Positions 3,678 to 29,936 of a stretch of DNA of 64,000 nucleotides are shown here, in pieces. Position 1 is the first letter of the stretch. Each line of letters starts with the position of its first letter. Under the pieces are notes generated by a model. The model did no database searches. It worked only from the letters and a program-made list of their open reading frames with translations, and had not been told where the DNA came from. Source of the stretch: a virus. A program made the translations under genes and the position numbers. The stretch is from positions 19,673 through 83,672 of the IMG/VR virus record IMGVR_UViG_3300020220_003517; one strand, 5' to 3'.

Positions 3678-3869
3678 ATGAAAAAACGAGTACCTACGTT
3701 TGAAGATTTTATCGGCGACTTGGAGACAAGAAAACTCAGAAAACTCGCTGATCGCGAAGAAGAGAAAGACGGTGACGAGCTGTTCTTAGACCCTGATACG
3801 CAAAATCCTACTTACTACGGTGACGATGAAGAGACAGCTACTGCTGCTTATCCGTTTGGAGGAATATGA
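3678..3869 (+). CDS. Small protein with capsid-targeting-like N-terminus (GD type)
   Basis: A 63-residue, highly charged protein starting MKKRVPTFEDFIGD, which matches the shared N-terminal peptide of eleven proteins here (K-x-F-E-x-F-I/L-x-E/D) and resembles the T4 capsid-targeting sequence MKTYQEFIAE. The predicted cut would follow Asp14 (I-G-D), a variant of the L/I-x-E site. The remaining 49 residues are acidic and probably unfolded, with no domain. It follows a terminator and a late-promoter-like motif and overlaps the next gene, which carries the same kind of N-terminus. A packaged internal protein is inferred, not demonstrated. Confidence 0.7.
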   Translation: MKKRVPTFEDFIGDLETRKLRKLADREEEKDGDELFLDPDTQNPTYYGDDEETATAAYPFGGI

Positions 3870-4057
3870 AAAAACCTATAAAAACATTTGAAGAATTCAT
3901 AGGTGACTTGCATGACAAGCATGTTATGAAAAAAGGCAAAAAGTACGCACATGGAAAAGAAGTCTTTTCCATAGACACAAATGAACCTGGCAAAGAATAC
4001 GACCAAGAGAAAGACGGCAGTGATCAAATCAATCGTTCTACTGTCCAAAGGTATTAA
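3866..4057 (+). CDS. Small protein with capsid-targeting-like N-terminus (GD type)
   Basis: A 63-residue protein starting MKKPIKTFEEFIGD, near-identical in its first 14 residues to its upstream neighbour although the rest differs, so the shared head is a module. The body is basic then acidic (HDKHVMKKGKKYAHGKE, then a Glu/Asp-rich tail) with no recognised domain. The ATG overlaps the previous stop (ATGA). A GGAGG precedes the ATG but is only 3 bases away and is part of the upstream coding sequence, so I do not count it as a ribosome-binding site. Probable packaged internal protein by analogy with T4. Confidence 0.7.
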   Translation: MKKPIKTFEEFIGDLHDKHVMKKGKKYAHGKEVFSIDTNEPGKEYDQEKDGSDQINRSTVQRY

Positions 4058-4068
4058 AAAAAACTTTA

Positions 4069-4683
4069 ATGCAGATAAACGTTTACAGTGATCACGGTGT
4101 AAGAGTATCTACTCCGTTGATATGGCAAGATTTTTTTGAAAGTTACTTGCCACACGCACAAGTTCATTATGTTTCAGCAAAAGACATTCTTCAAGGAAAC
4201 CCTGATGCAATACTCTTCCCTGGGGGTTCTGCTAGCATCTTTGCCCGGACTCTGGGAAAAAGAAGATTAAGTAAGATCACTGAATGGGTTAAAAATGGAG
4301 GCCGTTACATAGGCGTTTGCGCGGGTGCATATCTTGCATCAACTACATATTCTTGGTCTCTTGGAATTTCACCTGTAAGTATACATCGCAGGTGGAAAAG
4401 AGGTCATCATACTGTTAAGATACTAGTAGGATCGGAGTATCGTGACGTTGATTATTTTAACGGTCCGGTGTTTGAACAGTGGAAAAATGTGGACATTATT
4501 GCTCGTTACATGGATGACATACCTGATACAGACGGTTTACATGACATGCCTACAACTCCAGCTATTATAAAGAATCGATGCGGTAATGGCAAAGTTCTTT
4601 TACTTAGCCCTCACTTAGAAAAAACTCAAGATCTCAAAGAATTCTTAGAATCACTTTTACTATCTTTTTTGAATGATAAATAA
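4069..4683 (+). CDS. BPL_N-type class I glutamine amidotransferase-like protein
   Basis: A 204-residue protein matching the N-terminal domain of biotin-protein ligases (BPL_N, glutamine-amidotransferase fold). It begins with a strand QINVYSDHGV, then AILFPGGSAS, the nucleophile-elbow IGVCAGAYLAS with the candidate catalytic Cys at about residue 84, and DVDYFNGPVF typical of BPL_N. The C-terminal third has VLLLSPHLE, where the class I triad His is expected. The real reaction of stand-alone BPL_N proteins is not established. It has no capsid-targeting peptide but sits 11 bases after two genes that do. Fold confident, substrate unknown. Confidence 0.75.
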   Translation: MQINVYSDHGVRVSTPLIWQDFFESYLPHAQVHYVSAKDILQGNPDAILFPGGSASIFARTLGKRRLSKITEWVKNGGRYIGVCAGAYLASTTYSWSLGISPVSIHRRWKRGHHTVKILVGSEYRDVDYFNGPVFEQWKNVDIIARYMDDIPDTDGLHDMPTTPAIIKNRCGNGKVLLLSPHLEKTQDLKEFLESLLLSFLNDK

Positions 4684-4703
4684 ACAAATTAAAAAAGAAC
4701 ATA

Positions 4704-4790
4704 GTGAAGAGAAAAATTTTAGAAATTTGTAGAAGAATACATAAGCAAAATAAATTCTTTGCTGTAACATCTAAAATAACTTCTGTATGA
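4704..4790 (+). CDS. Possible 28-aa basic leader ORF
   Basis: A short GTG-started frame (MKRKILEICRRIHKQ...) that ends one base before the ATG of the holin candidate. The composition (Lys/Arg/Ile-rich) and the close placement are what one would expect of a tiny coupled gene, but the start is GTG, no motif supports it, and chance cannot be excluded. If not coding, the 108-base gap holds only A/T-rich leader sequence. Confidence 0.25.
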   Translation: MKRKILEICRRIHKQNKFFAVTSKITSV

Positions 4791-4791
4791 A

Positions 4792-5148
4792 ATGAAACTA
4801 AAAATGATCGCAAGTTTGGAAAAGTTTTCCATCGCGCAGATGACATCAAATGCCAACGGTAAAACTTCTGGCTCTGGAACTATGGGCGTAATTATTTGTA
4901 CTGTTGGAACTCTATGCTTTTTCTTAGGTTGCATTGACAAAATGTTTATCGGAAAAGACATTGATATCATAACGCAAGCCATCATATTTGTTGGCATCGG
5001 TGCTGCTCTTCTTGGGTACAGAAAATCAAAAGACGTATCAGGGGACATCGAAATCGCAAAATTGGAAAACGGTGCTCATGAAAACCAAATTTGTGATTGC
5101 CCCGAAGATTGCACTTGCGGTAACTGTGATCGTTGCCAACCAAAATAA
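4792..5148 (+). CDS. Two-span membrane protein with Cys-rich tail, holin candidate
   Basis: A 118-residue protein with two membrane segments at about residues 32-48 (GVIICTVGTLCFFLGC) and 62-78 (IITQAIIFVGIGAALLGY), a short loop between them and a hydrophilic C-terminal tail. The size, the two-span hairpin and the position 12 bases upstream of the endolysin gene suggest a class II-like holin that would release the endolysin. The tail ends with a cluster of six Cys (CDCPEDCTCGNCDRC), unusual for a holin and suggesting metal or redox binding. A second ATG at 4804 (MIASLEKF) is an alternative start. Role inferred from context. Confidence 0.55.
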   Translation: MKLKMIASLEKFSIAQMTSNANGKTSGSGTMGVIICTVGTLCFFLGCIDKMFIGKDIDIITQAIIFVGIGAALLGYRKSKDVSGDIEIAKLENGAHENQICDCPEDCTCGNCDRCQPK

Positions 5149-5160
5149 ACTCACTAATCT

Positions 5161-5985
5161 ATGTTAATTAAGAAAGGATCTACAGGAGGCGATGTTAAAC
5201 TCTTACAAGAAAAACTTGGTTTAACCGCAGACGGTTCGTTTGGACCAAAAACTGAAACAGCGGTTATTGCTTGGCAAAAGAAAAATGGCTTAACACCAGA
5301 CGGAATAATTACATCAGGCAATGTCAGTTGGAAGTTAATGTTTGGTACACCGGAATTGCCGCCATTTACATCTACTGAATCAACTGGTCTAAAGATTAAT
5401 GAACTCAAAGGTCACATATCTGATGCGGTTCTTGCGCAAATTCCTGAAACTGCTGCTAAATTTGGAATTACTACTAATTTACGTCTTGCGCACTTCTTGT
5501 CACAATGCGCTCATGAAAGTGGAAACTTTAAGGCAACTAGTGAAAACTTAAACTATTCTTCTAAAGGTTTACAAGCAACTTTTGGCAAGTACTTCCCGGG
5601 AAACCTTGCTGACTTATACGCAAAACAACCTGAGAAGATAGCTTCACGAGTTTATGCCAACAGAATGGGAAATGGCGATGAAAAATCACGAGACGGGTAT
5701 AAGTTTCGCGGTAGAGGTTATATACAACTGACTGGTAAAAGCAATTACGAGTCCTTTACAAAATTCATCGGAGAAGATTGTGTTTCTAATCCTGATTTGG
5801 TAGCAACAAAATACCCGCTTGCTTCTGCTGCCTTTTTCTTTAACAACAATAAACTTTGGTCTATTTGTGATAGAGGTGCAACAGTAGCAGATATCACCGC
5901 TGTTACAAAGCGTGTGAATGGTGGAACCAACGGCCTTGACGATAGAATTAAACACTTTAACGAGTACTGGAGTTTACTTAAATGA
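5161..5985 (+). CDS. Endolysin: peptidoglycan-binding domain plus GH19 chitinase-like domain
   Basis: A 274-residue lysin. Residues 1-60 form a PG_binding_1 repeat (IKKGSTGGDVKLLQEKLGL, then FGPKTETAVIAWQKKNGLTPDG). Residues 90-270 are a GH19 chitinase-like domain with the catalytic Glu in CAHESGNF (about residue 119), the conserved FRGRGYIQLTG, NPDLVATKYPLASAAFF and VTKRVNGGTNG. Phage GH19 enzymes cut the glycan strand of peptidoglycan. There is no signal peptide, so release must depend on a holin, for which the preceding gene is the candidate. The ATG has an A-rich leader without Shine-Dalgarno. Family assignment is firm. Confidence 0.9.
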   Translation: MLIKKGSTGGDVKLLQEKLGLTADGSFGPKTETAVIAWQKKNGLTPDGIITSGNVSWKLMFGTPELPPFTSTESTGLKINELKGHISDAVLAQIPETAAKFGITTNLRLAHFLSQCAHESGNFKATSENLNYSSKGLQATFGKYFPGNLADLYAKQPEKIASRVYANRMGNGDEKSRDGYKFRGRGYIQLTGKSNYESFTKFIGEDCVSNPDLVATKYPLASAAFFFNNNKLWSICDRGATVADITAVTKRVNGGTNGLDDRIKHFNEYWSLLK

Positions 5986-6008
5986 AACACTTAAAACTAA
6001 AGTCCTAG
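5982..6008 (+). pseudogene. Remnant of a capsid-targeting-type gene start
   Basis: Directly at the endolysin stop lies ATGAAACACTTAAAACT, identical over 17 bases to the start of the gene at 6860 (MKHLKL...). Here the frame runs MKHLKLKS and then hits TAG. It looks like the leftover start of a lost capsid-targeting gene, or a recombination scar between such genes. It may also be chance in AT-rich DNA. Confidence 0.4.
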
Positions 6009-6034
6009 TAGGAATACCTGAATAAATAAAAATT

Positions 6035-6841
6035 ATGAAATACGTTAAAACATTTGAAAGTTACATCCTAGAAGATTCGATGGAGATTCATGGAAGAGGT
6101 GATGTTATTCCTTTAAGTAAAGTTAACAAGAAAGCTGCTGATGCCTCAATTGGCAGAGGTGGTAAAGACGGTGATAAGAGAGATGATGCAGTTGCTGGGA
6201 AGAAAGTAAGCGTTCCTGTTAAAAATCTTCAAGCTGCCCAAACAGAGATTATCGCGGAAAAGGCTATTGGAATGGCTATTGGAACAATGCTAAACACAAA
6301 ACCTGCAAAAATTGGTGGTGATTTAGGTTCAATCGTTTCTAAAGACAATTTTATTATGGATGGTCATCATCGTTGGGCTGCTACATTTCTTTGCGATCCA
6401 AGCGGAAAAGTTGAAGCAACACAAATTGACTTACCTGGAGTATCCTTAGTATCTGCATTAAACACAATTACCGTTGGTATGTTTAATCGCGGTGGTAACT
6501 ACGGAGACGGAGACATTAAAGATTTTACCGGAAGAAACATTGGAAATCTTTTGGATAACTTTTTAGAGAACGGAATTCAAGGAAAGTTTCCTATTACACC
6601 TGAGCAAGTTAAAGAAAGCTTGAGTAATATGCCAGGAGCAGGTGGGGACTACGAAAAGGGTAAAGAGATTATGATGAAAAACGCTGACGCGTTGCCTAAG
6701 CAAATCATGCCAGGGGCCCCAGCACGAGTAGAAATGCCTGTAATTGGGCCGGACGAAGTTGAGAAAGTAAAACGAATGTTAGCTAATGGTGAGATTGATC
6801 TGACAAAACCATACAGCACCGACGTAAACAAAGAATTGTAA
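6035..6841 (+). CDS. ParB-like (sulfiredoxin-fold) protein with capsid-targeting-like N-terminus
   Basis: A 268-residue protein starting MKYVKTFESYILE, with a predicted cut after Glu13. Residues about 60-125 carry a ParB-like core: a long helix around IIAEKAIGMAIGTML, then NFIMDGHHRWAATFL at about residues 103-117, the G-H-H-R signature of ParB/sulfiredoxin-like proteins, some of which bind or nick DNA or use nucleotides. The rest has a Gly-rich middle (FNRGGNYGDGD) and a helical Pro-rich C-terminus, unrecognised. The leader contains aataaataaaaatt. If the N-terminus acts as in T4, this protein would enter the host with the DNA and could act on it early. Domain call by motif. Confidence 0.68.
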   Translation: MKYVKTFESYILEDSMEIHGRGDVIPLSKVNKKAADASIGRGGKDGDKRDDAVAGKKVSVPVKNLQAAQTEIIAEKAIGMAIGTMLNTKPAKIGGDLGSIVSKDNFIMDGHHRWAATFLCDPSGKVEATQIDLPGVSLVSALNTITVGMFNRGGNYGDGDIKDFTGRNIGNLLDNFLENGIQGKFPITPEQVKESLSNMPGAGGDYEKGKEIMMKNADALPKQIMPGAPARVEMPVIGPDEVEKVKRMLANGEIDLTKPYSTDVNKEL

Positions 6842-6859
6842 CATGAAAGCGCAACTCCT

Positions 6860-7321
6860 ATGAAACACTTAAAACTTTTTGAACAGTGGCTGTATGAAAA
6901 GAAACCTGCAGGCGCCCCTGAATGGAAAGATAGCGATGCACCTGATGCAGAAGGACGTTTTAGAGATTTAGGCATTGAGGATCTTGCTGCTTGGCTAATT
7001 AAGACTCGTAAAAAAGATCTTAAAAAGATTAGCGGTAGTCTTACACAGCAGGTCGTCTTTAACCGCAATGATGATCCTGAATACGCAGAGAAAATGGAAA
7101 AAGTTCGTAAAGAGGTGTACAAGCAGCTTGGTCGAGAAGACTTACTTGACGAAAAAGAATCTCCTTATGATGAAGATACTCTTAAGAAGTATCAAAAGGA
7201 ATACGAAGACGGTAAAGACATACCATTCGGTATAAGAGTCTCATTGATCGCGCAAGGCATGATACCCCGAGAAGGTGGACCAGATAAAGGCAAGAAAGTC
7301 AAGTCCCCAGACTACAAGTGA
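6860..7321 (+). CDS. Charged protein with capsid-targeting-like N-terminus, 153 aa
   Basis: A 153-residue protein starting MKHLKLFEQWLYE, predicted cut after Glu13 (L-Y-E). The body is rich in Lys, Glu and Asp, with helical segments (EGRFRDLGIEDLAAWLIKTRKK; YAEKMEKVRKEVYKQLG) and a C-terminal IPFGIRVSLIAQGMIPREGG. I recognise no domain. It follows the ParB-like gene by 18 bases, and the first 17 bases of the gene are identical to the remnant at 5982. Likely another packaged internal protein, by analogy. The start is set by the shared peptide. Confidence 0.68.
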   Translation: MKHLKLFEQWLYEKKPAGAPEWKDSDAPDAEGRFRDLGIEDLAAWLIKTRKKDLKKISGSLTQQVVFNRNDDPEYAEKMEKVRKEVYKQLGREDLLDEKESPYDEDTLKKYQKEYEDGKDIPFGIRVSLIAQGMIPREGGPDKGKKVKSPDYK

Positions 7322-7330
7322 GATATATAC
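7322..7330 (+). promoter_or_regulatory. Putative phage late promoter (GATATATAC)
   Basis: Exact copy of the recurrent motif in the gap between 7321 and 7363, 32 bases before the ATG. It begins directly after the stop codon of the previous gene. Confidence 0.6.
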
Positions 7331-7362
7331 TCTGAAAATATAAACTATAAAACACAGTATAC

Positions 7363-7587: not shown

Positions 7588-7649
7588 CATTAGAAAAACT
7601 TTAAAACAAATTATATTGGTTACCCAATAAGAAAATATAAAAACATACT

Positions 7650-8543
7650 ATGGGTCTTCTAGATTACGAATCTTTCTTGAATGAATCTGTTAATGAATCT
7701 GTTAATGCACAAAACATTTTTCAGTTCTTAACACAGTATATAGGATCAAGCGGTGCTAAGGCTGGGGCAACAATTTCTTATAGTGATATCTTGAAAGATA
7801 AGAAGTTTGCTGCTGATGACGGGCCTCTTTTGAATGAAGCAAACTTTTTTCATACGTTTGTTACAAATCTTGGAACAAACGCTAAAGATACAGCAGTAGG
7901 TGGAATTAGAACTTCAACAATAGCTGAACATATAGTTGAAAAAGTATTAGGCGGGCAACAAACTAATCCTACGGCTGTTGGAGCAGCAGGCGCTGATTCG
8001 ATTTTTTCTGACGTAAGTAAAGGAGATGAAAAGATATCAGTAAAAGCTTCTAAAAAGGCTGGTTTTTCTGGTGTATTAAGTATGTCTGCAATTAAAATTA
8101 ATCAGATATTAAGTATTCTTTTTTCAAATGGCTTATCTTCTACCATGGATAAAGACAAGCCTGAACAATTTAAGAAACTTAAAGAAAACACTCCACCTGA
8201 CGCTATGTCAGGAAAGTATTCAATTGCTGCTGTTTATACTAGTGGCGAAAGCTGCGTAATTGAAAAAACTTCCCCAATAGACGCAAAAACTCTTTGGGAT
8301 AATTGTGTTGCAACATTTAATACAAATCAGCCATTAGATAGCAAGTATTGGGAATCTCTCGACAGTGCAAAAAAGCTTTCTACTCTTGGTTTTTCTGTTG
8401 GCGAAACTTATACTATTGCAGGTCTTTCAGAAAAAGAAATTAATGATTTAGCAAACGTAAGAAACGTAATACTAAAGAAAATTGAAGTATTACCTACAGC
8501 CGAACTAAAAGACATTGCAGATTACAAAAAAATAAATTACTAA
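7650..8543 (+). CDS. Candidate PD-(D/E)XK nuclease with capsid-targeting-like N-terminus
   Basis: A 297-residue protein starting MGLLDYESFLNE, a shortened form of the shared peptide with predicted cut after Glu12 (L-N-E|S). Residues about 90-135 show a restriction-endonuclease-like pattern: Glu in AEHIVEKVLGG, then GADSIFSD (about residues 114-121) and KISVKAS (about 127-133), fitting E...D...(D/E)-x-K with the second acid less clear (GDEKISVK). Most of the rest is helical and unrecognised. The leader holds aaaatataaaaacatact. A nuclease delivered with the phage DNA could attack the host chromosome or competing DNA. The nuclease call is tentative. Confidence 0.6.
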   Translation: MGLLDYESFLNESVNESVNAQNIFQFLTQYIGSSGAKAGATISYSDILKDKKFAADDGPLLNEANFFHTFVTNLGTNAKDTAVGGIRTSTIAEHIVEKVLGGQQTNPTAVGAAGADSIFSDVSKGDEKISVKASKKAGFSGVLSMSAIKINQILSILFSNGLSSTMDKDKPEQFKKLKENTPPDAMSGKYSIAAVYTSGESCVIEKTSPIDAKTLWDNCVATFNTNQPLDSKYWESLDSAKKLSTLGFSVGETYTIAGLSEKEINDLANVRNVILKKIEVLPTAELKDIADYKKINY

Positions 8544-8558
8544 CAAAAAACCAATAAC

Positions 8559-8998: not shown

Positions 8999-9045
8999 TA
9001 AACGAACAGTTAGAATATCTTATCAAAGAGATTGATTGTGATAGA

Positions 9046-9499: not shown

Positions 9500-9829
9500 A
9501 TGGCATACATTAAACTTTTCGAAGAATTCTTAAATGAGAATTTAAATGAAGGAAAGAAAATTACCGTTATCACTTACGGTAATAAACAACATACATACAC
9601 CGATAAAGATATTCAAGAATTCATTAAGGATCCTAACATATCGGCAGACAATCTTCCAAGTTGGTTGTATGGTGCTGGATTAAGAGGAGCCAATGGATTT
9701 CCTAGAAAACCTAAGCAAGTCGTAGATTATCTTAAATTAATCCTTAAACATAAAGGGAATGTTACAATCAATGTAGCATCAGATAAACCTAGTTATCAAC
9801 ATTCTATCGTTTTTGAATCTAGTATATAA
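9500..9829 (+). CDS. Small protein with capsid-targeting-like N-terminus, 109 aa
   Basis: A 109-residue protein starting MAYIKLFEEFLNE, predicted cut after Glu13 (L-N-E|N), with a second near-match NLNE right after it. The mature part has a small beta start (KKITVITYGNKQHTYTDKDI), a helix around IQEFIKD, a Gly-rich turn (YGAGLRGANGFPRK) and a final strand pair. I recognise no family. It has its own late-promoter-like motif and is followed by two hairpins, so it is probably a single-gene late unit. Packaged internal protein inferred. Confidence 0.7.
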   Translation: MAYIKLFEEFLNENLNEGKKITVITYGNKQHTYTDKDIQEFIKDPNISADNLPSWLYGAGLRGANGFPRKPKQVVDYLKLILKHKGNVTINVASDKPSYQHSIVFESSI

Positions 9830-12475: not shown

Positions 12476-13489
12476 AGTTTTACGAATTCTTTCCAGTTCT
12501 TCAAGAAGTTCATCTCGCTGTTTAACAGAAACCCAATCATAGTTACCACCTTCAAGCGTAGCGATAGGAATAACATAGTAGTGGTTATTACTTTCGTTCT
12601 TAACGGTTGCTATCGGTAAGAAGGTATATCTTATATTTGAAAACCCATCACAAGACATTATCATAATGCACCCGCAGTTAGTAGTATAATGAGGAGGGTT
12701 CCACATGGTAGAAAAGAAATTTCCAAGTGAATAGACAATGATCTTTCCCTCTTCAAGAATTTCTGCACCTTGAAAGTAATGCGGATGTCCACCAATAACT
12801 ACGTCAGCGCCAAAATTACTTACGGAAGCCAAGAACTCTCGTTGCTCGCTGGTGCTTGTTCGTTCGAGTTCTCTTGCATTACTTTTTCTAGATGATTGAT
12901 GGACTCCAACAAAGACAAGTTCAGATCTCTCCTTCGCCAGATTAATCGTTTCCTGAGCTTGGGTTTTAGAGTAAAAATTGATGAGGTTTGTTGGTGTTTC
13001 TGGGGTATTAATTCCTTTGTAAATTGGGTCTTTCTTCGTTTCATTAATAAATTGTGTATAGTTTAGAAAAGATAATTTATGACCTTTTAAGTCAGCATCG
13101 AATGTTCTGCGAATTTTTGGTAAAGGATTAGTTCCTACGTAATTTATACCAAATTCATCCAGTATTTCAATAGTCCTTTCAACTCCTTTTGTTCCAAAAT
13201 CATAGCAGTGGTTGTTCGCAGTAAACACAAGATTCACAAAACTACTTAGGTCATCCGCTAACAGATCATTCGTTGAAAATTTAGGATAACTGCTCGTTTC
13301 TCCACTAAAAGTTGTTTCAAGATTTCCTACAACATAATCAGTGGAATACAGAAACGGCTTTATGAATTGGAATGGTTCATCATTGACAACTGACATAAGT
13401 GCGGAGTCTTCACACATTATGTCTCCAAGAAAAGCTATCTTAAAGACGCCTTTTTCTTTGCTGAACTTATCGAACGGTAAAACGTGCAT
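12425..13489 (-). CDS. CapA-like protein (PGA_cap, metallophosphoesterase fold)
   Basis: A 354-residue protein with the order of motifs of the bacterial capsule-synthesis CapA family: FLGDIMCED (residues 20-28), VVGNLETTFSG, VFTANNHCYDFG, a later His motif VGVHQSS, and GADVVIGGHPHYFQ followed by IVYSLGNFF. CapA takes part in poly-gamma-glutamate capsule handling. The usual H-W-G triplet is changed to H-Q-S, so activity may differ. Its ATG overlaps the stop of the upstream capsid-targeting-type gene (TAATG), putting it at the end of a five-gene minus-strand cassette. No signal peptide, so it acts in the cytoplasm or virion. Phage role unknown. Confidence 0.8.
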   Translation of the reverse strand: MHVLPFDKFSKEKGVFKIAFLGDIMCEDSALMSVVNDEPFQFIKPFLYSTDYVVGNLETTFSGETSSYPKFSTNDLLADDLSSFVNLVFTANNHCYDFGTKGVERTIEILDEFGINYVGTNPLPKIRRTFDADLKGHKLSFLNYTQFINETKKDPIYKGINTPETPTNLINFYSKTQAQETINLAKERSELVFVGVHQSSRKSNARELERTSTSEQREFLASVSNFGADVVIGGHPHYFQGAEILEEGKIIVYSLGNFFSTMWNPPHYTTNCGCIMIMSCDGFSNIRYTFLPIATVKNESNNHYYVIPIATLEGGNYDWVSVKQRDELLEELERIRKTLRDCSLIEEELPIHFF

Positions 13490-13788
13490 TAGTTTTCGTC
13501 CTTTAACATTCCGCCAGTTTTCATATCTCCTTGAACTGGTACTTCAATTTTCTTCTTGCCGCCTTCGCCTTTCATATAACCAAGAATAGCTTCCATGTTG
13601 TGTTCAGCGATAGTTATCTTGTCTTGCACCCAGGCCTCAAGATCTTGGTCGTCGGTAACAAGGGATTTGATTTCTTCAGCGCTCTTTATGATTGTATCAA
13701 GAGATACTTTATACATTTTGCCTTCTGCTTCTTCATTGGTTTTGGTAGAATCACCAAGAAAGTCTTCAAACGTTTTAATGTTTTTCAT
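13489..13788 (-). CDS. Small protein with capsid-targeting-like N-terminus (GD type), 99 aa
   Basis: A 99-residue protein starting MKNIKTFEDFLGD, predicted cut after Asp13. The body is helical and charged (YKVSLDTIIKSAEEIKSLV; DLEAWVQDKITIAEHNMEAILGYM) with a Lys/Gly-rich end. I use the ATG at 13788, where the shared peptide begins, not the upstream in-frame start at 13830. Its stop overlaps the CapA-like start, suggesting that the two are made together. A helix-rich, DNA-binding-like packaged protein is possible; this is inference. Confidence 0.7.
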   Translation of the reverse strand: MKNIKTFEDFLGDSTKTNEEAEGKMYKVSLDTIIKSAEEIKSLVTDDQDLEAWVQDKITIAEHNMEAILGYMKGEGGKKKIEVPVQGDMKTGGMLKDEN

Positions 13789-13813: not shown

Positions 13814-14125
13814 TCAAGACTCTTGCGCAATCATTGCAGTGATGATGTTTCCGTTAATAGTCTTAAACTGTTTCCAATAACGGATTGCCAAATCACCGAT
13901 ATGTTTTTCTGATGGTTTAGACACACGGTCCCCGCCGTCTGCTTCTGCTGCTTTGTTCCATGCAGCAATAGAATCGTCAACACACTTAATAACGTGTGAC
14001 ATATCTGTGCAAGGCTCGCTCATCCAGGCTTCTGCTTGTCCAGAAGTGTCTTCCGCGTAGTCAGACCAGTATGCAAGGCCGTTTGCCTCATTGAGGAAGT
14101 TTTCAAAGGTTTTTAGGTGTTTCAT
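13814..14125 (-). CDS. Small protein with capsid-targeting-like N-terminus, 103 aa
   Basis: A 103-residue protein starting MKHLKTFENFLNE, predicted cut after Glu13 with Ala next, the same P1-P1' pair as in T4 internal proteins (E|A). The mature part has Trp-rich helices (LAYWSDYAED; QAEAWMSEPC; SIAAWNKAAEADGG; LAIRYWKQF). No family recognised. I start it at 14125, ignoring an in-frame extension to 14152. It follows the 14140 gene by 14 bases on the minus strand. Confidence 0.72.
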   Translation of the reverse strand: MKHLKTFENFLNEANGLAYWSDYAEDTSGQAEAWMSEPCTDMSHVIKCVDDSIAAWNKAAEADGGDRVSKPSEKHIGDLAIRYWKQFKTINGNIITAMIAQES

Positions 14126-14139: not shown

Positions 14140-14481
14140 TTATAGTGCCCATCCCATGCTTGCACCGTGTGAACCATAGAAATCATCGACTGCGCTGAAA
14201 ACGAAAGTTAGACCTGAGTTATCTTTTCCAGGTTTAAGCAGTAGAACTTCCGAGCCGTGCGGGTCTGTAGTCCACTCGTACTTTACACGGGCTGCGCCCT
14301 TTTCACTTTTAATTGCTTTTTCAATTGCATCTTTATCTACACCTTTATCAAAGGAGATCTGGAATTCATCTTGGTACGGCTTATCAAAAGGAGGAAGGAT
14401 AAAGTTGATATTCTTTAGTTTAGATGTATCAAAAGCCAGGGCTTCATTTAAGAAGTTTTCAAATGTGTGTATGTGCTTCAT
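14140..14481 (-). CDS. Small protein with capsid-targeting-like N-terminus, 113 aa
   Basis: A 113-residue protein starting MKHIHTFENFLNE, predicted cut after Glu13 with Ala next. The mature part looks like a small alpha/beta domain: NINFILPPFDKPYQDEFQISF, the helix DKDAIEKAIKSEKG, strands RVKYEWTTDPHGSEVLLL and LTFVFSAVDDFYG. No family recognised. Second gene of the minus-strand cassette, with short gaps on both sides. Confidence 0.72.
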   Translation of the reverse strand: MKHIHTFENFLNEALAFDTSKLKNINFILPPFDKPYQDEFQISFDKGVDKDAIEKAIKSEKGAARVKYEWTTDPHGSEVLLLKPGKDNSGLTFVFSAVDDFYGSHGASMGWAL

Positions 14482-14496: not shown

Positions 14497-14718
14497 TTAG
14501 ATATCTGCTCCACCGTCTGAAGCAACGGAATCATCGGATGCGACGTCGTCATCGTCGTCATCGTCGTCATCGCTAACTTCTGCTGCATCGATTTCTTCTT
14601 CTTTTTCTTCTTCTTGTTCACCGCCAGCTTCAGCACGAAGATTCTTCTTAACAAGATCTTTTTCCAATTCATCAGCTTCTACCAAAAAGTCGGAAAAATT
14701 TAATACTCTTCTATTCAT
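14497..14718 (-). CDS. Polyacidic protein with capsid-targeting-like N-terminus, 73 aa
   Basis: A 73-residue protein starting MNRRVLNFSDFLVE, predicted cut after Glu14 with Ala next. The rest is very acidic: a Glu run (EEEKEEEID), then nine Asp in a row, then Ser/Asp repeats. The Asp run is coded by a 9-bp DNA repeat. Such a tail could mimic DNA, bind cations, or act like the acidic cores of phage scaffolds. It is the first gene of the minus-strand cassette, with a late-promoter-like motif upstream. Confidence 0.7.
   Translation of the reverse strand: MNRRVLNFSDFLVEADELEKDLVKKNLRAEAGGEQEEEKEEEIDAAEVSDDDDDDDDDVASDDSVASDGGADI
14545..14571. repeat. 9-bp tandem repeat, three copies
   Basis: gtcgtcatc repeated three times without change (plus-strand reading), coding nine Asp on the minus strand. 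Repeats of this type can change copy number by slippage in steps of three residues. Confidence 0.9.
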
Positions 14719-19322: not shown

Positions 19323-21368
19323 ATGTACTACACTAACAAAATTACAAAAGGGTTTTTAACTGGCGGGGGCCAGTGGTTACCATCTCCATCTCGCCCCGAA
19401 AAATTTGATGAGGAGATTAGTAGATGGCAAGACTACGAAGACCCTACTTACATGGGCTTCTACTTTAGAATTATCCCAGACGGATATTATGATCCAACTA
19501 ACATGGACATGGATGTAATGCCGATGGGCTTATTTATGAAGTATGATGAAAATTACAATAAGGCCAATGATACGGAGAAAGGCCTTGGTGATGGGTATAC
19601 AAACTTACCTGATGGCGCTGAAAGCTTTTTAAGAAGGCGAGGCGAGTATTACCGCGCTGGCATGATTCGAGAATTTAGAGAGGGTTTTATGAAAGTATCC
19701 ACATACGAGCCATGGACATTCGAAAAAGTTGAAGGATTAGCTGACTTATGGAGAGTTGACCCAAAAAACCCTTATCGCGCAAAAGAAAAGAAAATTATAT
19801 TTGATTGCCATGAAAGCATTTCAATGAAGATGACGTATCTTATTGATTGTTATCGAAAAGCTTCATATGATTTCTCTAACATGCGTCATATGTTACCCGA
19901 TAACCAAAGATACTTTTCAATGGACTTGTGGGTCACTGAAATACGCCATATTAAGCGTCCGAATACTGCGGCTGATCCTAAGGGGCTCTCACCAAATTCT
20001 TTTTTCAACACAGGTTCGTTTATTAGGTTCAGATTAGACTATTGTGAATTTGACTTTTTGACTGAAGAAACTGTAGGTTATTTGGCAGATGTCGCAAGAT
20101 ACGCGAGTGATAAACCAGCACACGTAAAAATACCAATTAAGATTGGAGCGATTCGTGAAGTCAATAACTATGGTATGATGGGTGGACTTATCGCAGACAC
20201 TTTTTACAATTACCAGCGAGGAAAAGACACGATGTATTCATCATTTAATAAAACAACCAGCATACAGGGGGAACCAGAGGGAGATGGTGTAACAAGAGGT
20301 GACGATGTTGAAAAATTCTCGCGTGACTTACAAACTTTGTCTTATAATAACGTTGATGGCTTTAAAGATCTTAGATCACTGCTCTTTTCAGCTGCGACGC
20401 CGCCATTTTTTACGGCGGGGGAAACAGAATGGAGAGAGGGGCAAAGCGTCGGGAAAAGGACAGAGGATAAACAATTTAGTTTTGGCGTGGGGAACAAAAA
20501 TAATGGAACTGAAAACAAAGCACCAGGAAAACAAGGGTTTGAATCAAAAGTATATAATGCACAAGGCGAGCTGGTAGATAGAGTAAACACTTCACTTAAT
20601 GCACAAAACATTCAGTTAGGTGGGGCACCTGCACAAGAAACCAATCTTGCTGGAGAAAATGCATTAGGTGAAAATTTACTTGTACCACCATCTGGCACTT
20701 TGATAGAACGTAACTTAGGAAGCGTTGATGTAGGATCAAGAGCTCGTGCATTGGCTGGAAATTTGCTTAGAGGCGCATTTCTTGGTAATGTTTATGGTTT
20801 ATCTTTAACCACACTTGTAGGTGAACTACAAGGGATTCTGAATAACCCCGTAGCCGCCCTGCAAGGTTTATTAAGTAAATTTGCAAAGTCCCCTAAAGAA
20901 GCTTCTACAATGGCGGATAACATTAACTTAGATGGTGCTGATATTGAACTTCTAAAAGGCTTTATTGGAGACATAAAAGAGATACAATCAGTAACAGCTG
21001 GTACATCTTTAGAGAATGCCACGCTTGGAGAACTTGTAAGATTAGAACCACCTAAAGCTACTACACCAAATCCTCGAAAAGAAGATTTGCTATCATCGGG
21101 TAAGACATCACTGTTACAGTCTGACCTTGGTAGAATCTTATTTGGTTCATCCCCAGTTGCTGCGCAAGCTGTAGCAAAAGCACAGCTTGAAGGACCTGTA
21201 TCTACTATAGATGCTAGTCTTGATACCTCAATCGTTACTTTAGAAGGTGATAAGATTGATAGTGATTCAACTCCTAAACCAGCTAATGTTAACCTTGAAA
21301 GCCAAGGGTCATCTTTAAAATCTACTGGTTTAGGTAACATTGGTTTTTCTAATAAAAGTCGCAAATAA
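19323..21368 (+). CDS. Tail-tube-fold baseplate protein (tube cap/initiator candidate)
   Basis: A 681-residue protein. Residues 1-310 hold a folded region with a tube-protein-like block: KIIFDCHESISMKMTYLIDCYRKA, then DNQRYFSMDLWVTEIRHIKR and FRLDYCEFDFLTEE. T4 gp48, gp54 and the tail tube gp19 share such a fold. The rest (about 320-681) is Gln/Gly/Ala-rich with small hydrophobic helices (LRGAFLGNVYGLSLTTLVGEL) and probably extended. It lies between the hub and spike genes. A near-leaderless promoter motif precedes it. The role as tube cap or initiator is inference. Confidence 0.65.
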   Translation: MYYTNKITKGFLTGGGQWLPSPSRPEKFDEEISRWQDYEDPTYMGFYFRIIPDGYYDPTNMDMDVMPMGLFMKYDENYNKANDTEKGLGDGYTNLPDGAESFLRRRGEYYRAGMIREFREGFMKVSTYEPWTFEKVEGLADLWRVDPKNPYRAKEKKIIFDCHESISMKMTYLIDCYRKASYDFSNMRHMLPDNQRYFSMDLWVTEIRHIKRPNTAADPKGLSPNSFFNTGSFIRFRLDYCEFDFLTEETVGYLADVARYASDKPAHVKIPIKIGAIREVNNYGMMGGLIADTFYNYQRGKDTMYSSFNKTTSIQGEPEGDGVTRGDDVEKFSRDLQTLSYNNVDGFKDLRSLLFSAATPPFFTAGETEWREGQSVGKRTEDKQFSFGVGNKNNGTENKAPGKQGFESKVYNAQGELVDRVNTSLNAQNIQLGGAPAQETNLAGENALGENLLVPPSGTLIERNLGSVDVGSRARALAGNLLRGAFLGNVYGLSLTTLVGELQGILNNPVAALQGLLSKFAKSPKEASTMADNINLDGADIELLKGFIGDIKEIQSVTAGTSLENATLGELVRLEPPKATTPNPRKEDLLSSGKTSLLQSDLGRILFGSSPVAAQAVAKAQLEGPVSTIDASLDTSIVTLEGDKIDSDSTPKPANVNLESQGSSLKSTGLGNIGFSNKSRK

Positions 21369-25200: not shown

Positions 25201-26819
25201 TAAAAGGTAAGATTAAGAAATCTGTAGATGAACTAGTTATACCTGACCCACCTGTCTTTGGAGGATTTTCCCCCACTGCTTTGCGGATGAAAGACTTAAT
25301 TAAGAATGCTTTAAAGTTTACTAACTGCGATAATGTAGAAGCAATTAAGTTGTCACTAAAAACTATTATAGAGCTTTTAATTGCAAGTTTGGATGGACTT
25401 GATGTACCAGGAATAAAAATACCGCGTGACTCAAAGGGCATGATGATGGAGCTTCCCAGTGCGATTGCTATGCTTGACACTATTAATTCTTTGTTGAGTA
25501 TTCTTAAGACAGCTCCGGATAAAGCAAAGAAGCTTCTTAAAGAAATAGGATTAAGTATAAACAACCCTTTTGATGTTACTGCTAAATTAAAGGAACTGGT
25601 TAGAGCCAATACATCGTATGCTGCATCGATAGAAATCTTTTCTGAGTTCGACACAAAGATTGACGCACTTGAAGCTGAAGTAGATTTAGGAAGTCCTGAA
25701 GAAGCGGCTAAGAAGAGATTAGATTTAGTTAAAGATCTTTTAAAGAAGCAGATAGAAGATGCAATTAAAGATATAACCCCTGAGAAATTGGGTTTTGTTT
25801 CATCTGCAGATATCTTGGTATCTTTGCCCGAGCCGTGTTATACTAACGTTTCAATCCCCCCTCTTAACCCTGGAATATCTCTTGCTTTGGAAGCAATTAA
25901 GAATATACCCAACATTATTCTGGGTCTTAATGATGACTTGATACTAAAAGCACTTAGTAAAATTATTGACTTTGCTGTTCAGCTGCCTTCTGCTGAAGAA
26001 TTATTTCAGCTTGGAATTAACTTGTTTTTGGACTTAATACCCCCTCTTGTTATCCCTATCGATATAAGTGTTTCTCTTCTTAAAGAGATTAAGATAGCTT
26101 TAAAAAACTTCATCGCATCATTTACCGTAAGATTGCCTAAAGTTGGTCTTCCTATACAAATAGAAATCCCTGGGACAAAAATTCTTTTTATCATAAAAAA
26201 GGCGTTAAAAGATTTCTTATCTTCTTTTAACGAGTTTGCGAACTGTTACATAAATCAAATATGCAAAAACTTAGGTACTTCTGCTGTTGCATCAAAGATT
26301 GCCGTTATTTTGAATATCATAAAGCTATTGTTTAGCGTGAGTCTTGAACAAATATCAGGACCGGACATAAAAGCATTTTTGTTTTCTTTGCTAGAGACGA
26401 TAGCATTTCCAGCGCTGGATGTTTTAGGTACACTTATAGACGCTGCTTCTAATCTTAAATCTCCATTTTTATCAATCATATCTCAATTCGTTACACCTGA
26501 TCCTCCTAAACCAGAAGGGCCATTTTTTGAACTTAACCCCAAGTTAATAAAAGATTATGTAGATCCTATCATAAAAGGTGCTGCTTCGTTTACAAGCGAA
26601 AACATACCTTTTCCTGTAATACTTCTTGGGTGTGCTTTTCCAGCAACTCGAATTGCGCTTACAAAAATTCATCCATCGAAACCAAAAGAAGTCTTACCTG
26701 CATGGGAAGGGCTTTCGACAAAAAACTTTCCATTCATCATCTGGCTTGACCAGCTTGTCGCCACAGCACAAAGGAACGCTTTGTTAGGAAATAGCTATGT
26801 GGCACCATACTTTGCGTAA
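22233..26819 (+). CDS. Very large tail/baseplate protein, 1528 aa
   Basis: A 1528-residue protein coupled to the spike gene (TAATG). It starts with a Cys pair (GCDCCDEL), a Gly/Asn/Ser-Ala repeat segment (about residues 37-52) from a DNA repeat, and long helical regions. At about 830-930 is a hydrophobic Pro-rich block (YYPVALQIPVPAPIPSLALG; PLPFLWVHLLTLHTS; FWIGAAGGIIP) that could be a membrane-active or buried segment; helices fill the rest. I recognise no family. Size and place (after the spike, before the promoter of the S1-like gene) suggest a virion protein of the hub, perhaps a tape-measure-like or injected protein. Function inferred only from context. Confidence 0.6.
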   Translation: MDELKKGCDCCDELSDDAKSVLNEISSLLDPNAGKNANGSANGSANGSANGSAQDDADNCIKAFAKKALPAVENPNDKDRILKLLEAINSALSGAISDIVSLTKEVFSIDFASLDTSKIQAAANSVNNLSDNPTIDVSKVLPGLDTSKMKDVKISLTVPAITLNKSINMGPVSINLRFAISTKEVSWGPAIDTNFSTPKKALDALKNDKIKSLLTPSVGKSLEELKEIAKKEVKDIAILTELLAATNADMFFEILEREGINLYIEENLGDIAEKIYKDNLKAAKAIKKNLNKKVGNSLVKDLKEVGKMDLCGKRPSKTKKFSTDEVEEAIPCVVPIEPEIPLANIKEVEDLINGLSLPNPEDELNKIKNMMACIKKAQDIMNECGKKKVNAINRYYAFKEVALLHDLNHKYVSERATTNNLLNPPFIAIAKEKSSIESQLADVTAKLLSTNLSAVETENLNAQKNDLDQSLISLQEDFQSSVDNFNAGLEAEIKDEFDIAEFNTYDFEDYVEKARKKVKRTTNALSNLTGFKDNGKSLELIVTNPEIKGRLDFLLAQSLNGAQDTIFDGYLKVDNYTFVPGEGLPRTGFLENGLWRKYYSPNRIDDLFTWKEQGYTGPKPQYDDQGNALGAKSTVEIKSGDGSTIVQEVPTSVKNCNVDLAIAIPFIENLEELTRGKINSLANQILTSSDAKPYIKKIRFYARLEAKLSFYDMISSTDFSSISVSNFESFNPDKFINELDISNRFLNKLQKELNFFVKTIEECNTCIEEQKKAITACAEKAGGGDSSPGTEKKCKDLLGSDPLGLKGSNGCPDYKKNCYWREYTKIMQIVSLMPIPDLMFLNKRLFRYYPVALQIPVPAPIPSLALGIPDPVISIPLPFLWVHLLTLHTSVGTFVFWIGAAGGIIPNVYVMFIDEKQQTIFAVTLTGPSKIPDPSLGITEFDEKSLLELLPGLDTTLKINLTQFPGNLFTGSTRLDVNKPDSSKTVIDSIKGKIKKSVDELVIPDPPVFGGFSPTALRMKDLIKNALKFTNCDNVEAIKLSLKTIIELLIASLDGLDVPGIKIPRDSKGMMMELPSAIAMLDTINSLLSILKTAPDKAKKLLKEIGLSINNPFDVTAKLKELVRANTSYAASIEIFSEFDTKIDALEAEVDLGSPEEAAKKRLDLVKDLLKKQIEDAIKDITPEKLGFVSSADILVSLPEPCYTNVSIPPLNPGISLALEAIKNIPNIILGLNDDLILKALSKIIDFAVQLPSAEELFQLGINLFLDLIPPLVIPIDISVSLLKEIKIALKNFIASFTVRLPKVGLPIQIEIPGTKILFIIKKALKDFLSSFNEFANCYINQICKNLGTSAVASKIAVILNIIKLLFSVSLEQISGPDIKAFLFSLLETIAFPALDVLGTLIDAASNLKSPFLSIISQFVTPDPPKPEGPFFELNPKLIKDYVDPIIKGAASFTSENIPFPVILLGCAFPATRIALTKIHPSKPKEVLPAWEGLSTKNFPFIIWLDQLVATAQRNALLGNSYVAPYFA
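22341..22388 (+). repeat. 12-bp tandem repeat, four perfect copies
   Basis: gctaacggcagt repeated four times, coding A-N-G-S units near the start of the 1528-aa protein. In-frame, so copy number can change without breaking the gene; probably a flexible linker. Confidence 0.92.
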
Positions 26820-26830
26820 AGAACTTGTAT

Positions 26831-26839
26831 GATATATAC
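26831..26839 (+). promoter_or_regulatory. Putative phage late promoter (GATATATAC)
   Basis: Exact copy, 14 bases before the S1-like gene start and after the stop of the 1528-aa protein. It suggests separate late expression of the S1-like/amidoligase pair and following genes. Confidence 0.62.
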
Positions 26840-26853
26840 AAAAATCTAAAATA

Positions 26854-28050
26854 ATGAATACACAAAAAAACAAACAAGAAATTGATTGGGACAGACTCGA
26901 ATCTGGTAAACGCAGAAAACCTAATCCTGAAATCTTAGCAAAGTATGGTGCTAAGAATTACTGCTTAGAACCATACGCACTAGATCTTTATGAGAAAATG
27001 ATTCTTGGACAAGAAATCTTAAGTAAAGAACTTAGAGAAGGTGAGACAAGGAGAATCATTGCTGTTAGAGCAGCTAATAAGAATGAGGTGCATGTAATAC
27101 TAGGCGGGCTGATTGATGGGATAGTAGATCTTAAAAGAGAAAAAGGCTACTTAAACACAATTAACATGGATTCTGAAGGTTTTTCAGAGTATTTGAGTAC
27201 CGAAGAAGGGCAAAACTACTTCTTAAACCAGGAAATACAAGCCACCGTTGAGCAAGTTGAACCTTACGTTAAAGTTTCAATTTCAAGAGGGATGGAAGAA
27301 AAGATTAAAAGTGAATTTGTCAAGCAAATTGCTAAACCAACATCGGCTTACATTGGTAAGATTCTTGAAAAGAATGGAGGCGGTTTTATCATATTTGTTG
27401 CGGGTATCAAAGGATTTTTGCCAGGGTCACTCGCTGCTACAAATATCGTAAGAGATTTTGACAGTATGATAGGAAGAGAGATTCCTGTCGTTGTAGAAGA
27501 TTATTTACGCGAAAGTAATACATTTGTATTCTCGTATAAGAAATATGTGAGTATGATATTGCCTAGCAAAATTAGTGAGTTAGAGACCGACAAAATGTAT
27601 ACCGGAAGCGTTACTGGAGTTGCAAAGTACGGTGTATTCGTTGAGTTTGATGAGATATTCACGGGTCTATTGCACACAAGCAAAATGACTCCAGAGATGA
27701 AGAAGAAGTTTACTGACCGTGAGATCACGGCTGGAAATGAATTAACTTTTTGGATCAAAGAGATCACACCTGACAAGAAAATTATTCTTACAGATGAAGA
27801 TCCCACGGCTAAAAGATTAGAACTTGAAGAGTTTAAAGAAAAAAATCTTGGAACTATTCGGGGTGGTGAAGTTATTTCAATTCAGCCGTTTGGTACATTG
27901 GTTAAGTTACAAAAAGATATCTGCGGAATGATTTCTCAAAAAGAAATCAAAACAAAGAAAAAGAACTTTACGGTTGGAGACACAGTAATGGTCTCGATTG
28001 ATAGAGTTCACAACGACAAAATTTTCTTATCATTGCCAAATGAAGGTTAA
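26854..28050 (+). CDS. Ribosomal protein S1-like protein with S1 (OB-fold) repeats
   Basis: A 398-residue protein built from S1-type RNA-binding repeats, at least two clear and up to four. The clearest is about residues 245-315: MYTGSVTGVAKYGVFVEFDE, FTGLLHTSKM, then GNELTFWIKEITPDKKIILT. Others are about 145-215 (SAYIGKILEKNGGGFIIFV, KGFLPGSLAA), about 330-395 (GEVISIQPFGTLVKL; GDTVMVSIDRVHNDKIFLS) and a worn copy near 60-125. Bacterial S1 binds mRNA on the 30S subunit. Here it could favour phage mRNAs, which lack Shine-Dalgarno, or act as an RNA chaperone. It sits between baseplate genes, with its own late promoter motif, so a virion role cannot be excluded. Domain call firm, role inferred. 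Confidence 0.85.
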   Translation: MNTQKNKQEIDWDRLESGKRRKPNPEILAKYGAKNYCLEPYALDLYEKMILGQEILSKELREGETRRIIAVRAANKNEVHVILGGLIDGIVDLKREKGYLNTINMDSEGFSEYLSTEEGQNYFLNQEIQATVEQVEPYVKVSISRGMEEKIKSEFVKQIAKPTSAYIGKILEKNGGGFIIFVAGIKGFLPGSLAATNIVRDFDSMIGREIPVVVEDYLRESNTFVFSYKKYVSMILPSKISELETDKMYTGSVTGVAKYGVFVEFDEIFTGLLHTSKMTPEMKKKFTDREITAGNELTFWIKEITPDKKIILTDEDPTAKRLELEEFKEKNLGTIRGGEVISIQPFGTLVKLQKDICGMISQKEIKTKKKNFTVGDTVMVSIDRVHNDKIFLSLPNEG

Positions 28051-29464
28051 AAAGAATTACACTAAGACTGAGGTTCTTGACAGCGCCCGTTGCGGATTCG
28101 AGTTTGAGTTTTACAGCTCGATGGATGTGTTTGAAACCGCTAAAGACATCGCAAAATTTGTAAAAAGAAGGGTAGTAGTGCCTCTTGCATTAAGTTCTAT
28201 AACAGAACCTAAGCCTCTTTATCACTCTCCAGTAGCTCCTACTGCTGACATATTTAAACTAGAACCTGATTATTCAGGTGGTAAGAGTATGTGTGAGTTA
28301 GTCACTGGACCGATGAAATACAAAGATGCTCGCAACGTCTTAATTAAAGTCTTTGAATGGATCAGCAGTAATGGCTATACTAACGAAAGGTGTTCTATAC
28401 ACGTAAACATTAGTATTGATGAAAATGCGGTCCCTACCCGTTTTACTATTCCTAACATCAACATACCTAAGTTTATCTTATCTTTTGATGAGAAAAAGAT
28501 ATATGACATCTTTCCTAAAAGAGAAGGGAGTGTTTATGCTAGAAGTATTAAGTCTCTAAGACCTAACAGAGTACTTTTTTATTCTCCTACATTAGAAGAA
28601 TTTAGTCGCGCCACCCTAACTCTTCCAGCTGACGAAAAGTACTATGGAGTTAACTTCTTGAAGGCGGAAAAGGGTTATCTGGAATATCGTTACCTTGGTG
28701 GTAAAGATTATGAAAAGACGACAAAGAAAATTCTTGACTTGGTCGATTACTTTATTCTTCATTTATATGATACGTTAAACTTTGAAGGATTTACTGACAA
28801 AGAAAAGGCGGACTTTAAAAAAATGACGGCCATTGACGAAAAGGTGTATAAATCTTTTGTTAAATACGAAGTTTTCCAAAAAGCGTTTCCTGGAATAGAA
28901 GTTGGGGTTGATATGAACGCAGACCCACAAGTACTGGAATCTATGTGGGTTAACATTCGAGAAAAACTATTTGATCTTATAATTACAGGAAAGATGAAGA
29001 AAGGCGCCTTTAATTATGACAAAGAAATTGGACGTTTTCAATTAAAGGACACCAAGTTGCGTAACTGCAAGTTAACTGACATGGAATTTATTAACTGCGA
29101 ACTTGAAGGTGTTATTCATAGAGCATGGTTTTATGATTGTAAAATTAAGAACTCAAGGATACAAGACGGTAATTTTGTAAAAGGAAATACCGTTGATTTT
29201 AGTAAAATTTCTGAATGCGAGCTTCATATTGATAATAAGCTTAATGACTGTTTTATAGAAAACAAGAAAAACATCATTAACTGTCAAGTTAACCGCGGTG
29301 TTATTCGAAACGGCGAAATTGGAAAACTTGCAAAAATTTCCAAAGAAACTATGATTGTTGAAGGTCAACCAATCGAAACAGGGAATTCGGGTGGTAATAC
29401 ATTTCAAGATGCTGCACAAGACGAAAAGAATAGAGAAAAGAATAAAGAATCCAAGAAAAAATAA
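28040..29464 (+). CDS. Amidoligase-like (COOH-NH2 ligase) protein fused to pentapeptide-like repeats
   Basis: A 474-residue protein. I start it at the ATG at 28040, which overlaps the S1-like stop, since the residues before it belong to that gene's frame. Residues 16-130 match amidoligases: RCGFEFEFY (E-x-E metal/ATP site), EPDYSGGKSMCELVTGPM, then CSIHVNISID (the H-V-N/H site). These ATP-grasp-related enzymes form amide or peptide bonds. After residue 330 comes a beta-helix-like, pentapeptide-type repeat (KLRNCKLTDMEFINCELEG; CKIKNSRIQDGNF). The fusion suggests a modifying enzyme with a DNA-mimic or protein-binding tail. It may ligate glutamate or a peptide onto a phage or host target; this is inference. 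Confidence 0.72.
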   Translation: MKVKKNYTKTEVLDSARCGFEFEFYSSMDVFETAKDIAKFVKRRVVVPLALSSITEPKPLYHSPVAPTADIFKLEPDYSGGKSMCELVTGPMKYKDARNVLIKVFEWISSNGYTNERCSIHVNISIDENAVPTRFTIPNINIPKFILSFDEKKIYDIFPKREGSVYARSIKSLRPNRVLFYSPTLEEFSRATLTLPADEKYYGVNFLKAEKGYLEYRYLGGKDYEKTTKKILDLVDYFILHLYDTLNFEGFTDKEKADFKKMTAIDEKVYKSFVKYEVFQKAFPGIEVGVDMNADPQVLESMWVNIREKLFDLIITGKMKKGAFNYDKEIGRFQLKDTKLRNCKLTDMEFINCELEGVIHRAWFYDCKIKNSRIQDGNFVKGNTVDFSKISECELHIDNKLNDCFIENKKNIINCQVNRGVIRNGEIGKLAKISKETMIVEGQPIETGNSGGNTFQDAAQDEKNREKNKESKKK

Positions 29465-29476
29465 CCCTTATGAGTA

Positions 29477-29605
29477 GTGGCAAGAGCAAAAAAAGAAAAA
29501 CAGGGAATGCCTCGCAACCGGCGCACTATGGCAAAGAACTTAAAAAGAATTCTTAAAAATGAAGCTATTCTCAAAAAACTGAAAGCTGAATATGAAACAC
29601 ATTAA
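29477..29605 (+). CDS. Possible 42-aa basic protein
   Basis: A GTG-started frame of 42 residues (MARAKKEKQG..., then KNLKRILKNEAILKKLKAEY), strongly basic and helical, lying in the 127-base gap and overlapping the next start by 14 bases. Internal ATGs at 29507 and 29528 are alternative starts. A second short frame (29470-29556, 28 aa, MSSGKSKKRK) overlaps it and cannot both be right. Either or neither may be coding. Confidence 0.35.
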   Translation: MARAKKEKQGMPRNRRTMAKNLKRILKNEAILKKLKAEYETH

Positions 29606-29936
29606 AACATTTGAGAACTTTTTGAATGAAGGGCACTTGGACTTTAAGATTCAAAAATCACTACAATTAGGTGGTGTAACTTTCGAGTTTAATGAAGAGC
29701 TTACCGATGAAGACGATGATAATCGTTTTGATTTTGTTCAAGTTTACTATGCAGACGAAAGAAGAAACGGGAATGAGTGGGTGATTAAAGTAGGAACTAC
29801 TGGTGAAGGTAATTACATCTTGGAAATTATTGAAGACGAGAAAGTAGTTTTTACTCATGAATATCCCAAAAATCAACGCGCATACTTTGATCAAGATTGC
29901 ATGAATAGCCTTGGTTTTTTACCTGAATTAGATTAA
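29592..29936 (+). CDS. Small protein with capsid-targeting-like N-terminus, 114 aa
   Basis: A 114-residue protein starting MKHIKTFENFLNE, the best example of the shared peptide, predicted cut after Glu13 with Gly next. The mature part is a small beta-rich acidic domain: GVTFEFNEELTDEDDDNRF, VIKVGTTGEGNYILEIIEDEKVVFTHEY. No family recognised. It lies in the structural operon, 8 bases before a structural gene, far from the other members, so the family is spread over more than 25 kb. Confidence 0.72.
   Translation: MKHIKTFENFLNEGHLDFKIQKSLQLGGVTFEFNEELTDEDDDNRFDFVQVYYADERRNGNEWVIKVGTTGEGNYILEIIEDEKVVFTHEYPKNQRAYFDQDCMNSLGFLPELD

Follow-up and report, generated by a model that had tools for sequence, protein, structure and literature searches.

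Why should eleven small and otherwise dissimilar proteins of one virus begin with the same short peptide? This question is raised by a 64,000-nucleotide stretch of viral DNA (hereafter the window), which spans positions 19673–83672 of the 83,672-base IMG/VR record IMGVR_UViG_3300020220_003517. We find that the shared N-terminus, here termed the leader, is most likely a T4-like capsid-targeting sequence, predicted to load cargo proteins into the prohead core and to be removed by the head protease after [LIV]-x-E. The evidence consists of a leader boundary after a Glu residue, a gp21-type protease in related phages, leader genes within their head operons, and unrelated mature parts. The record covers part of the genome of a huge myophage of Bacteroidota type. 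The window encodes a myovirus baseplate and tail module. Its closest relatives among named phages are of huge or jumbo size and mostly infect Bacteroidota, which are probably the host group of the window phage as well. These relatives include LR756500 (462 kb), LR756501 (735 kb), Lak phages and Sphingomonas phage PAU, and further relatives are found among Tenacibaculum, Chryseobacterium, and Flavobacterium phages.

All eleven open reading frames (ORFs) listed in a preliminary description of the window are present with the expected N-termini; an upstream start that would lengthen the ORF also exists for those at 13788 and 14125. A six-frame translation of the whole record contains seven copies of the strict core K[TL]FE.[FYW][LI], each at an ORF start (7/7), and a looser N-terminal pattern fits 7 of 176 ORFs where 0.046 are expected by shuffling (maximum 3 in 5000). 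The consensus first proposed for all eleven describes most of them, and the leaders at 7650 (MGLLDYESFLNE), 14718 (MNRRVLNFSDFLVE), and 3678 (MKKRVPTFEDFIGD) fit it only loosely. A DNA pattern of the exact leader retrieved only five stretches from viral contigs, and BLAST of the 29592 protein against named phages gave only chance matches.

Far larger sets of genes with such a start are present in the relatives. Leader families were found there without any motif, by clustering the first 16 residues of the proteins within each genome, paired with controls taken from internal positions. The window yielded 8 genes (12 N-terminal pairs versus 0/0 in the internal controls), the relative G002 24 genes with MKHIxTFExFLNE (127 versus 1/1), LR756500 40 genes with MKYIKEYEEF[LI]xE (335 versus 14/15), and PAU 20 genes, or 19–20 overall, with MKT[LI]xxLYE[AS] (88 versus 2/0). 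In LR756501, 49–52 genes match the strict leader pattern, and a loose cluster of 109 genes includes noise. T4, the positive control, gave just a few MKT[YF]xEF genes, and MaF61 showed neither an S77 protease match nor a leader family. The leader variant is specific to each phage. We found no earlier report of this leader when the open-access literature was searched by peptide strings or by topic.

Such sharing might be a functionless relic of gene duplication or recombination, and 10 of 26 leader proteins in LR756500, including leucine-rich-repeat proteins, do form one sequence family. What follows the leader makes this explanation extremely improbable. The eleven window proteins are essentially unrelated once their first 14 residues are removed, as had been proposed, the sole weak similarity being between 6035 and 9500 (35% over 60 amino acids (aa), E about 0.004–0.01). 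After removal of the first 16 residues, 22/22 leader proteins of G002 and 19/19 of PAU are mutually unrelated, and the 26 of LR756500 fall into 17 families. The leader is also retained across divergent phages while the residue that follows it is free. Finally, positions with the same residue use different codons in 39% of pairs, which bears out the suggestion that the peptide is kept by selection on the protein. This figure is below the 48% expected with independent codon choice, and points to old, protein-level conservation slightly short of full randomization. Unrelated cores and codon divergence thus led us to reject the duplication relic.

The end of the leader is well defined. In the following, a slash inside a peptide marks the predicted leader end and the next letter the residue after it. 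When 42 leaders of the window clade were aligned on the end of the motif, the Glu carried 3.7 bits of information and the next residue, where S, A, G, and N are preferred, carried 0.7 bits. The signal then fell to near zero, so that conservation ends exactly after the Glu. An E is found at the end in 40 of the 42 leaders and L, I, or V two residues earlier in 41, counts to be read in light of the selecting pattern, which itself demanded E or D plus a hydrophobic residue there. The Lys, His/Tyr, Ile, Thr/Glu, and Asn positions and the abrupt loss of signal played no part in selection. A similar site, LxE/[ASTG] and typically LINE/A, lies close to the start of 38/38 distinct major capsid proteins (MCPs). 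Taken together, the sequence evidence for head targeting and for a cut after [LIV]xE is strong.

The gp21-type prohead protease that a T4-like system would need is not on the 83.7-kb record but is encoded by relatives. A search of the record for an S77 protease was negative, PHROG scans of its larger genes found no portal, head protease, or MCP, and the head proteins of LR756500 have no match in it. Because the fragment does not include the head module, the missing protease is uninformative. The protease of the relatives (S77/phrog_207) is about 600–800 aa long, and its N-terminal 165 or so residues have the fold of T4 gp21 (Foldseek match to 5JBL, E 5e-10, template modelling score 0.74 on target), the only significant fold match. 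Its invariant GELDHP aligns with T4 GELNHP (His85), and its [IV]SSR with T4 VSSR. By fold and by the aligned positions of catalytic His and Ser, it is classed as a peptidase S77 of the gp21 family. LR756500 carries this protease together with leaders and a baseplate like that of the window, as does contig G020 (protease, leader genes, and window-like baseplate), and contig G011 carries protease and baseplate with few leader-like genes.

Leader genes are linked to the head genes of these phages. LR756500 encodes consecutively a portal (phrog_213, 1.9e-67), a head maturation protease (phrog_207, 1.4e-40), and an MCP (phrog_138, 1.3e-30). In viral contigs with the same head module, leader genes such as MKHIKLFEDFVNE are found both immediately between protease and MCP and immediately after MCP. 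Across the MCP loci that we fetched, the leader pattern occurs in 28 of 150 genes up to 2.5 kb from MCP versus 7 of 346 beyond (p=4e-10). The 28 include no fewer than two truncated protease ORFs whose start falls within the repeats described below; that such ORFs match the pattern shows how alike repeats and leader are. The head module of PAU contains 14 of its 19 leader genes (p=2e-10), and gp142 and gp154 bear the database label 'internal capsid protein'.

The same linkage bears on whether the leader proteins mainly build the core, as accessory core or scaffold proteins like T4 gp67/gp68, most being degraded or structural and not delivered as effectors. One leader gene, in which the leader is followed by DEG[IL][TF]D (MKRVKSYNEFIAE..DEGITDI), is kept immediately downstream of MCP in many relatives (L226:12872, L245, L250, L279); it looks structural and likely encodes a core protein, and the PAU leader gene gp152 was deposited as 'scaffolding'. 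As an account of the whole set this is unlikely, since most leader proteins are lineage-specific and unrelated, and several are enzymes, which would be odd for pure scaffolds. Core-building and delivered classes of leader protein may coexist.

How might a short peptide be recognized by the assembling head? Downstream of its gp21-like domain, the protease of the relatives has a long C-terminal region with repeats of about 14 residues (IxYSEY[LIV]AE) that resemble the leader; in LR756501 these are 42-bp tandem repeats at the DNA level, reading [NV]DxxIxYSEYIAE. The leader IKTFENFLNE, the T4 peptide KTYQEFIAE, and the repeat IKYSEYIAE share one layout. When an LR756501 leader profile was run over internal positions of all proteins, the protease/scaffold fusion ranked first in 6/6 proteomes (LR756501, 966 proteins; LR756500, 627; G011, 168; G020, 130; G012, 40; and part of G009, 18). 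A profile of window-clade leaders gave 47 matches in 23 distinct protease C-terminal parts versus 5.5 ± 2.5 in shuffled sequences, and none in the N-terminal parts of the same proteases. The PAU protease has no such repeats of about 14 residues. The two best internal matches of the PAU leader among 287 genes are the C-terminal tails of the protease (SKKLYE/SIK) and portal (SKSLYE/SIK), and so leader type and head-protein site type vary together. Because the leader resembles one repeat of the scaffold/protease protein, it is probably a packing label for loading of the head.

These similarities make mimicry of a scaffold repeat a supported inference, and we consider it the probable mechanism. 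The leader would mark a large, modular set of unrelated cargo for the inner core of the prohead by imitating one repeat of the core scaffold. In the relatives the scaffold-like part is fused to the S77 protease as helical repeats of about 14 residues (...IxYSEY[LIV]AE/...), and a cargo protein with a leader could co-assemble like one extra repeat. At maturation the same protease would act on sites of one kind in the scaffold, the portal tail, the capsid protein, and the leader, and mature cargo would remain with the DNA and be delivered into the host. From these comparisons we infer packaging, cleavage, core binding, and injection, as well as a protease in the window's own phage. We lean slightly toward a broader proposal, in which huge Bacteroidota phages run an open-ended delivery system where any protein with one N-terminal scaffold repeat becomes head cargo, repeat and leader copies co-evolve within each phage, and a 735-kb phage may deliver 50 or so proteins.

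Several observations weigh against T4-type targeting by repeat mimicry. The window phage's own protease and scaffold are unseen, its head genes lying off the available fragment. Three of the eleven window leaders (3678, 3866, and 13788) end in D, as [LI]-G-D, so that the proposed L/I-x-E cleavage rule fits eight. Window-clade leaders rank the protease less well than the LR756501 profile does, from 1st to 27th (12/102 in G011, 27/234 in LR756500), and the repeat region is predicted to be helical in a model of low confidence. Homology of the repeat region to the T4 scaffold gp22 was rejected (hhalign probability 0.3%); on every other sequence-level test run, the analogy with T4 internal proteins that the preliminary description drew holds. 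MA9V-1 and PTm1 carry S77 yet have no large leader family, which indicates that the protease does not require the leader, and Lak-A1 shows no leader set in the 400 of 542 kb scanned.

An alternative is that the peptide has nothing to do with the capsid and serves as a signal for targeting or degradation, directing proteins to an intracellular compartment, for instance, or to an adaptor protease of host or phage. LR756501 has other widespread end motifs (DPYGEExW and KRTKLIDKML), and such phages evidently use peptide tags. Head-operon linkage, the matches in the PAU protease and portal tails, and the match to the scaffold repeat all point to head assembly, and we regard a non-capsid signal as very unlikely.

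The leader genes of the window lie among tail and lysis genes. On the plus strand, 3678..3869 encodes an acidic 63-aa protein whose leader (MKKRVPTFEDFIGD) ends in D and may be uncleaved; it is retained in the relative G005 (27921-28109, MKNIIKTYEEFIGDE). The gene at 3866..4057 (+) also encodes 63 aa (MKKPIKTFEEFIGD). The 268-aa protein of 6035..6841 (+; MKYVKTFESYILE/D) has a ParB-like DGHHRWA domain (phrog_2859, 2.5e-9), which is also found in PAU (110202-110372, within gp148 adjoining portal) and in proteins of Ackermann-type phages, a few of which carry the database label 'structural protein'. The 153-aa product of 6860..7321 (+; MKHLKLFEQWLYE/K) has a G002 ortholog to which a C-terminal extension is fused (83% identity over 139 aa).

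The largest carrier, 297 aa from 7650..8543 (+; MGLLDYESFLNE/S), has a conserved D..IFSDV...EK[IV]SVK[AS]SK motif that on inspection by eye is suggestive of a PD-(D/E)XK nuclease, an unconfirmed likeness. There was no significant match in a PDB profile search and no Pfam match, and the predicted structure (mean predicted local distance difference test score 46.6) is too poor for a fold search, so the idea rests on the motif. The gene at 9500..9829 (+) encodes 109 aa (MAYIKLFEEFLNE/N). Four leader genes are on the minus strand: 13489..13788 (99 aa, MKNIKTFEDFLGD), 13814..14125 (103 aa, MKHLKTFENFLNE/A), which has a homolog in G002 (MKHIPTFEQFVNE/G; 34%, 5.7e-9), 14140..14481 (113 aa, MKHIHTFENFLNE/A), and 14497..14718 (73 aa, MNRRVLNFSDFLVE/A), which is rich in Asp and Glu. 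The last, 29592..29936 (+; 114 aa, MKHIKTFENFLNE/G), is inside the tail/baseplate operon and is kept at the same location in L005/L009 (80%); L010, L011, and L019 have a different leader gene there (MKHIQTFESFLFE, MKHIQLFEEFLNE). Upstream of the window, from -13714 to 202 in window coordinates (L001), inspection of the sequence shows a series of genes for sugar metabolism and probable glycosyltransferases, also present in G002 and G005.

Most leader carriers have no known domain. Carriers in LR756500 include a polynucleotide 3'-phosphatase and a DUF2201 metallopeptidase-VWA protein, G002 has a nucleotidyltransferase, and GNAT and cREC_REC domains also occur. Leucine-rich-repeat proteins with the leader form a paralogous expansion in LR756500 (record 13446, 180972, 198758, 331856) and are candidates for injected effectors that act on bacteria. 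A set of leader proteins about 420 aa long and homologous to one another (G002:17715-18986, G001:60560-61795, LR756500:267941-269206) contains the motif EKLDGYAL, which recalls the KxDG of nucleotidyl-transferring ligases, and has no Pfam match. The mature part of the leader protein at G005:27099-27554 (L077:7102-7554), VAYHTSGTKI...PVWVTANPVFAKAYH, resembles by eye mono-ADP-ribosyltransferases, with no Pfam match. T4 Alt is a packaged mono-ADP-ribosyltransferase.

Other terminal motifs were observed in the two large relatives. In LR756501 (loci L100-L136), roughly 90 different proteins together contain 106 copies of DPYGEE[DNEI]W, most often right at the C-terminus, some 10 residues before the end, and also internally or near N-termini (for example, record 130076, 145582, 502266, 555792). 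It looks like a phage-wide peptide tag for some receptor, and no mention of it was found in the literature searched. A second C-terminal motif, KNxKRTKLIDKMLNE, is found in 25 small proteins of the same phage in clusters (record 216519-223700, 274369-278530, 672951-674910). In LR756500 (loci L040-L063), 14 proteins have the C-terminal tail NADDFGFxDN (e.g. record 11706, 12631, 197835, 313382), and 11 of these also carry the N-terminal leader, so that some cargo is tagged at both ends.

By analogy with T4 IPI and Alt, early anti-defence or takeover functions would be likely roles for the cargo (PMC3012670, PMC5512222), and the leader proteins are a rich source of candidates for both. The leader also permits candidate injected proteins of uncultured huge phages to be listed from sequence alone, dozens per genome and nearly all of unknown function, and it is a possible programmable packing tag for Bacteroidota phages. 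No clear answer to how the T4 capsid-targeting peptide is recognized at the molecular level was found in the literature searched; many phages with co-varying leader and scaffold repeat offer a test of the leader as a copy of the scaffold repeat.

Among known systems, the closest likeness is to the T4 internal proteins (MKTYQEFIAE; IPI, IPII, IPIII, and Alt), where a short N-terminal peptide with [FY]-x-x-F-[LI]-x-E likewise precedes diverse proteins, a gp21-type (S77) protease is present, here in the relatives, and cargo sets vary between relatives (PMC3012670). Unlike T4, with four MKT[YF]xEF starts, the genomes of relatives of the window phage each encode some 20 to 50 or more carriers, the leader differs by phage, carriers include enzymes, and scaffold-like repeats that resemble the leader are fused to the protease. 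The giant phages SPN3US (of Salmonella) and phiKZ have many inner-head ejection proteins, some of them made with N-terminal propeptides that a gp21-related protease removes by cutting after x-x-E (PMC5694885). However, those propeptides are mostly long (>100 residues), with no single shared 13-residue leader and an identical N-terminus common to two paralogs only. The related phage PAU has leaders MKT[LI]xxLYE/[AS], most around portal, protease, and MCP, for which no published description was found in the literature searched; it differs in its cut site, LYE rather than FLNE, and in having separate protease and scaffold proteins. Polyvalent proteins, whose domains include ParB-like and ADP-ribosyltransferase ones, are also thought to be packaged and injected with phage DNA (Iyer et al. 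2017, PMC5512222), but these are large multidomain polypeptides rather than many separate small proteins with one tag. Judged by these comparisons, the system is known in kind and much larger than in T4, and what is new is the resemblance of the protease C-terminal repeats to the cargo leader.

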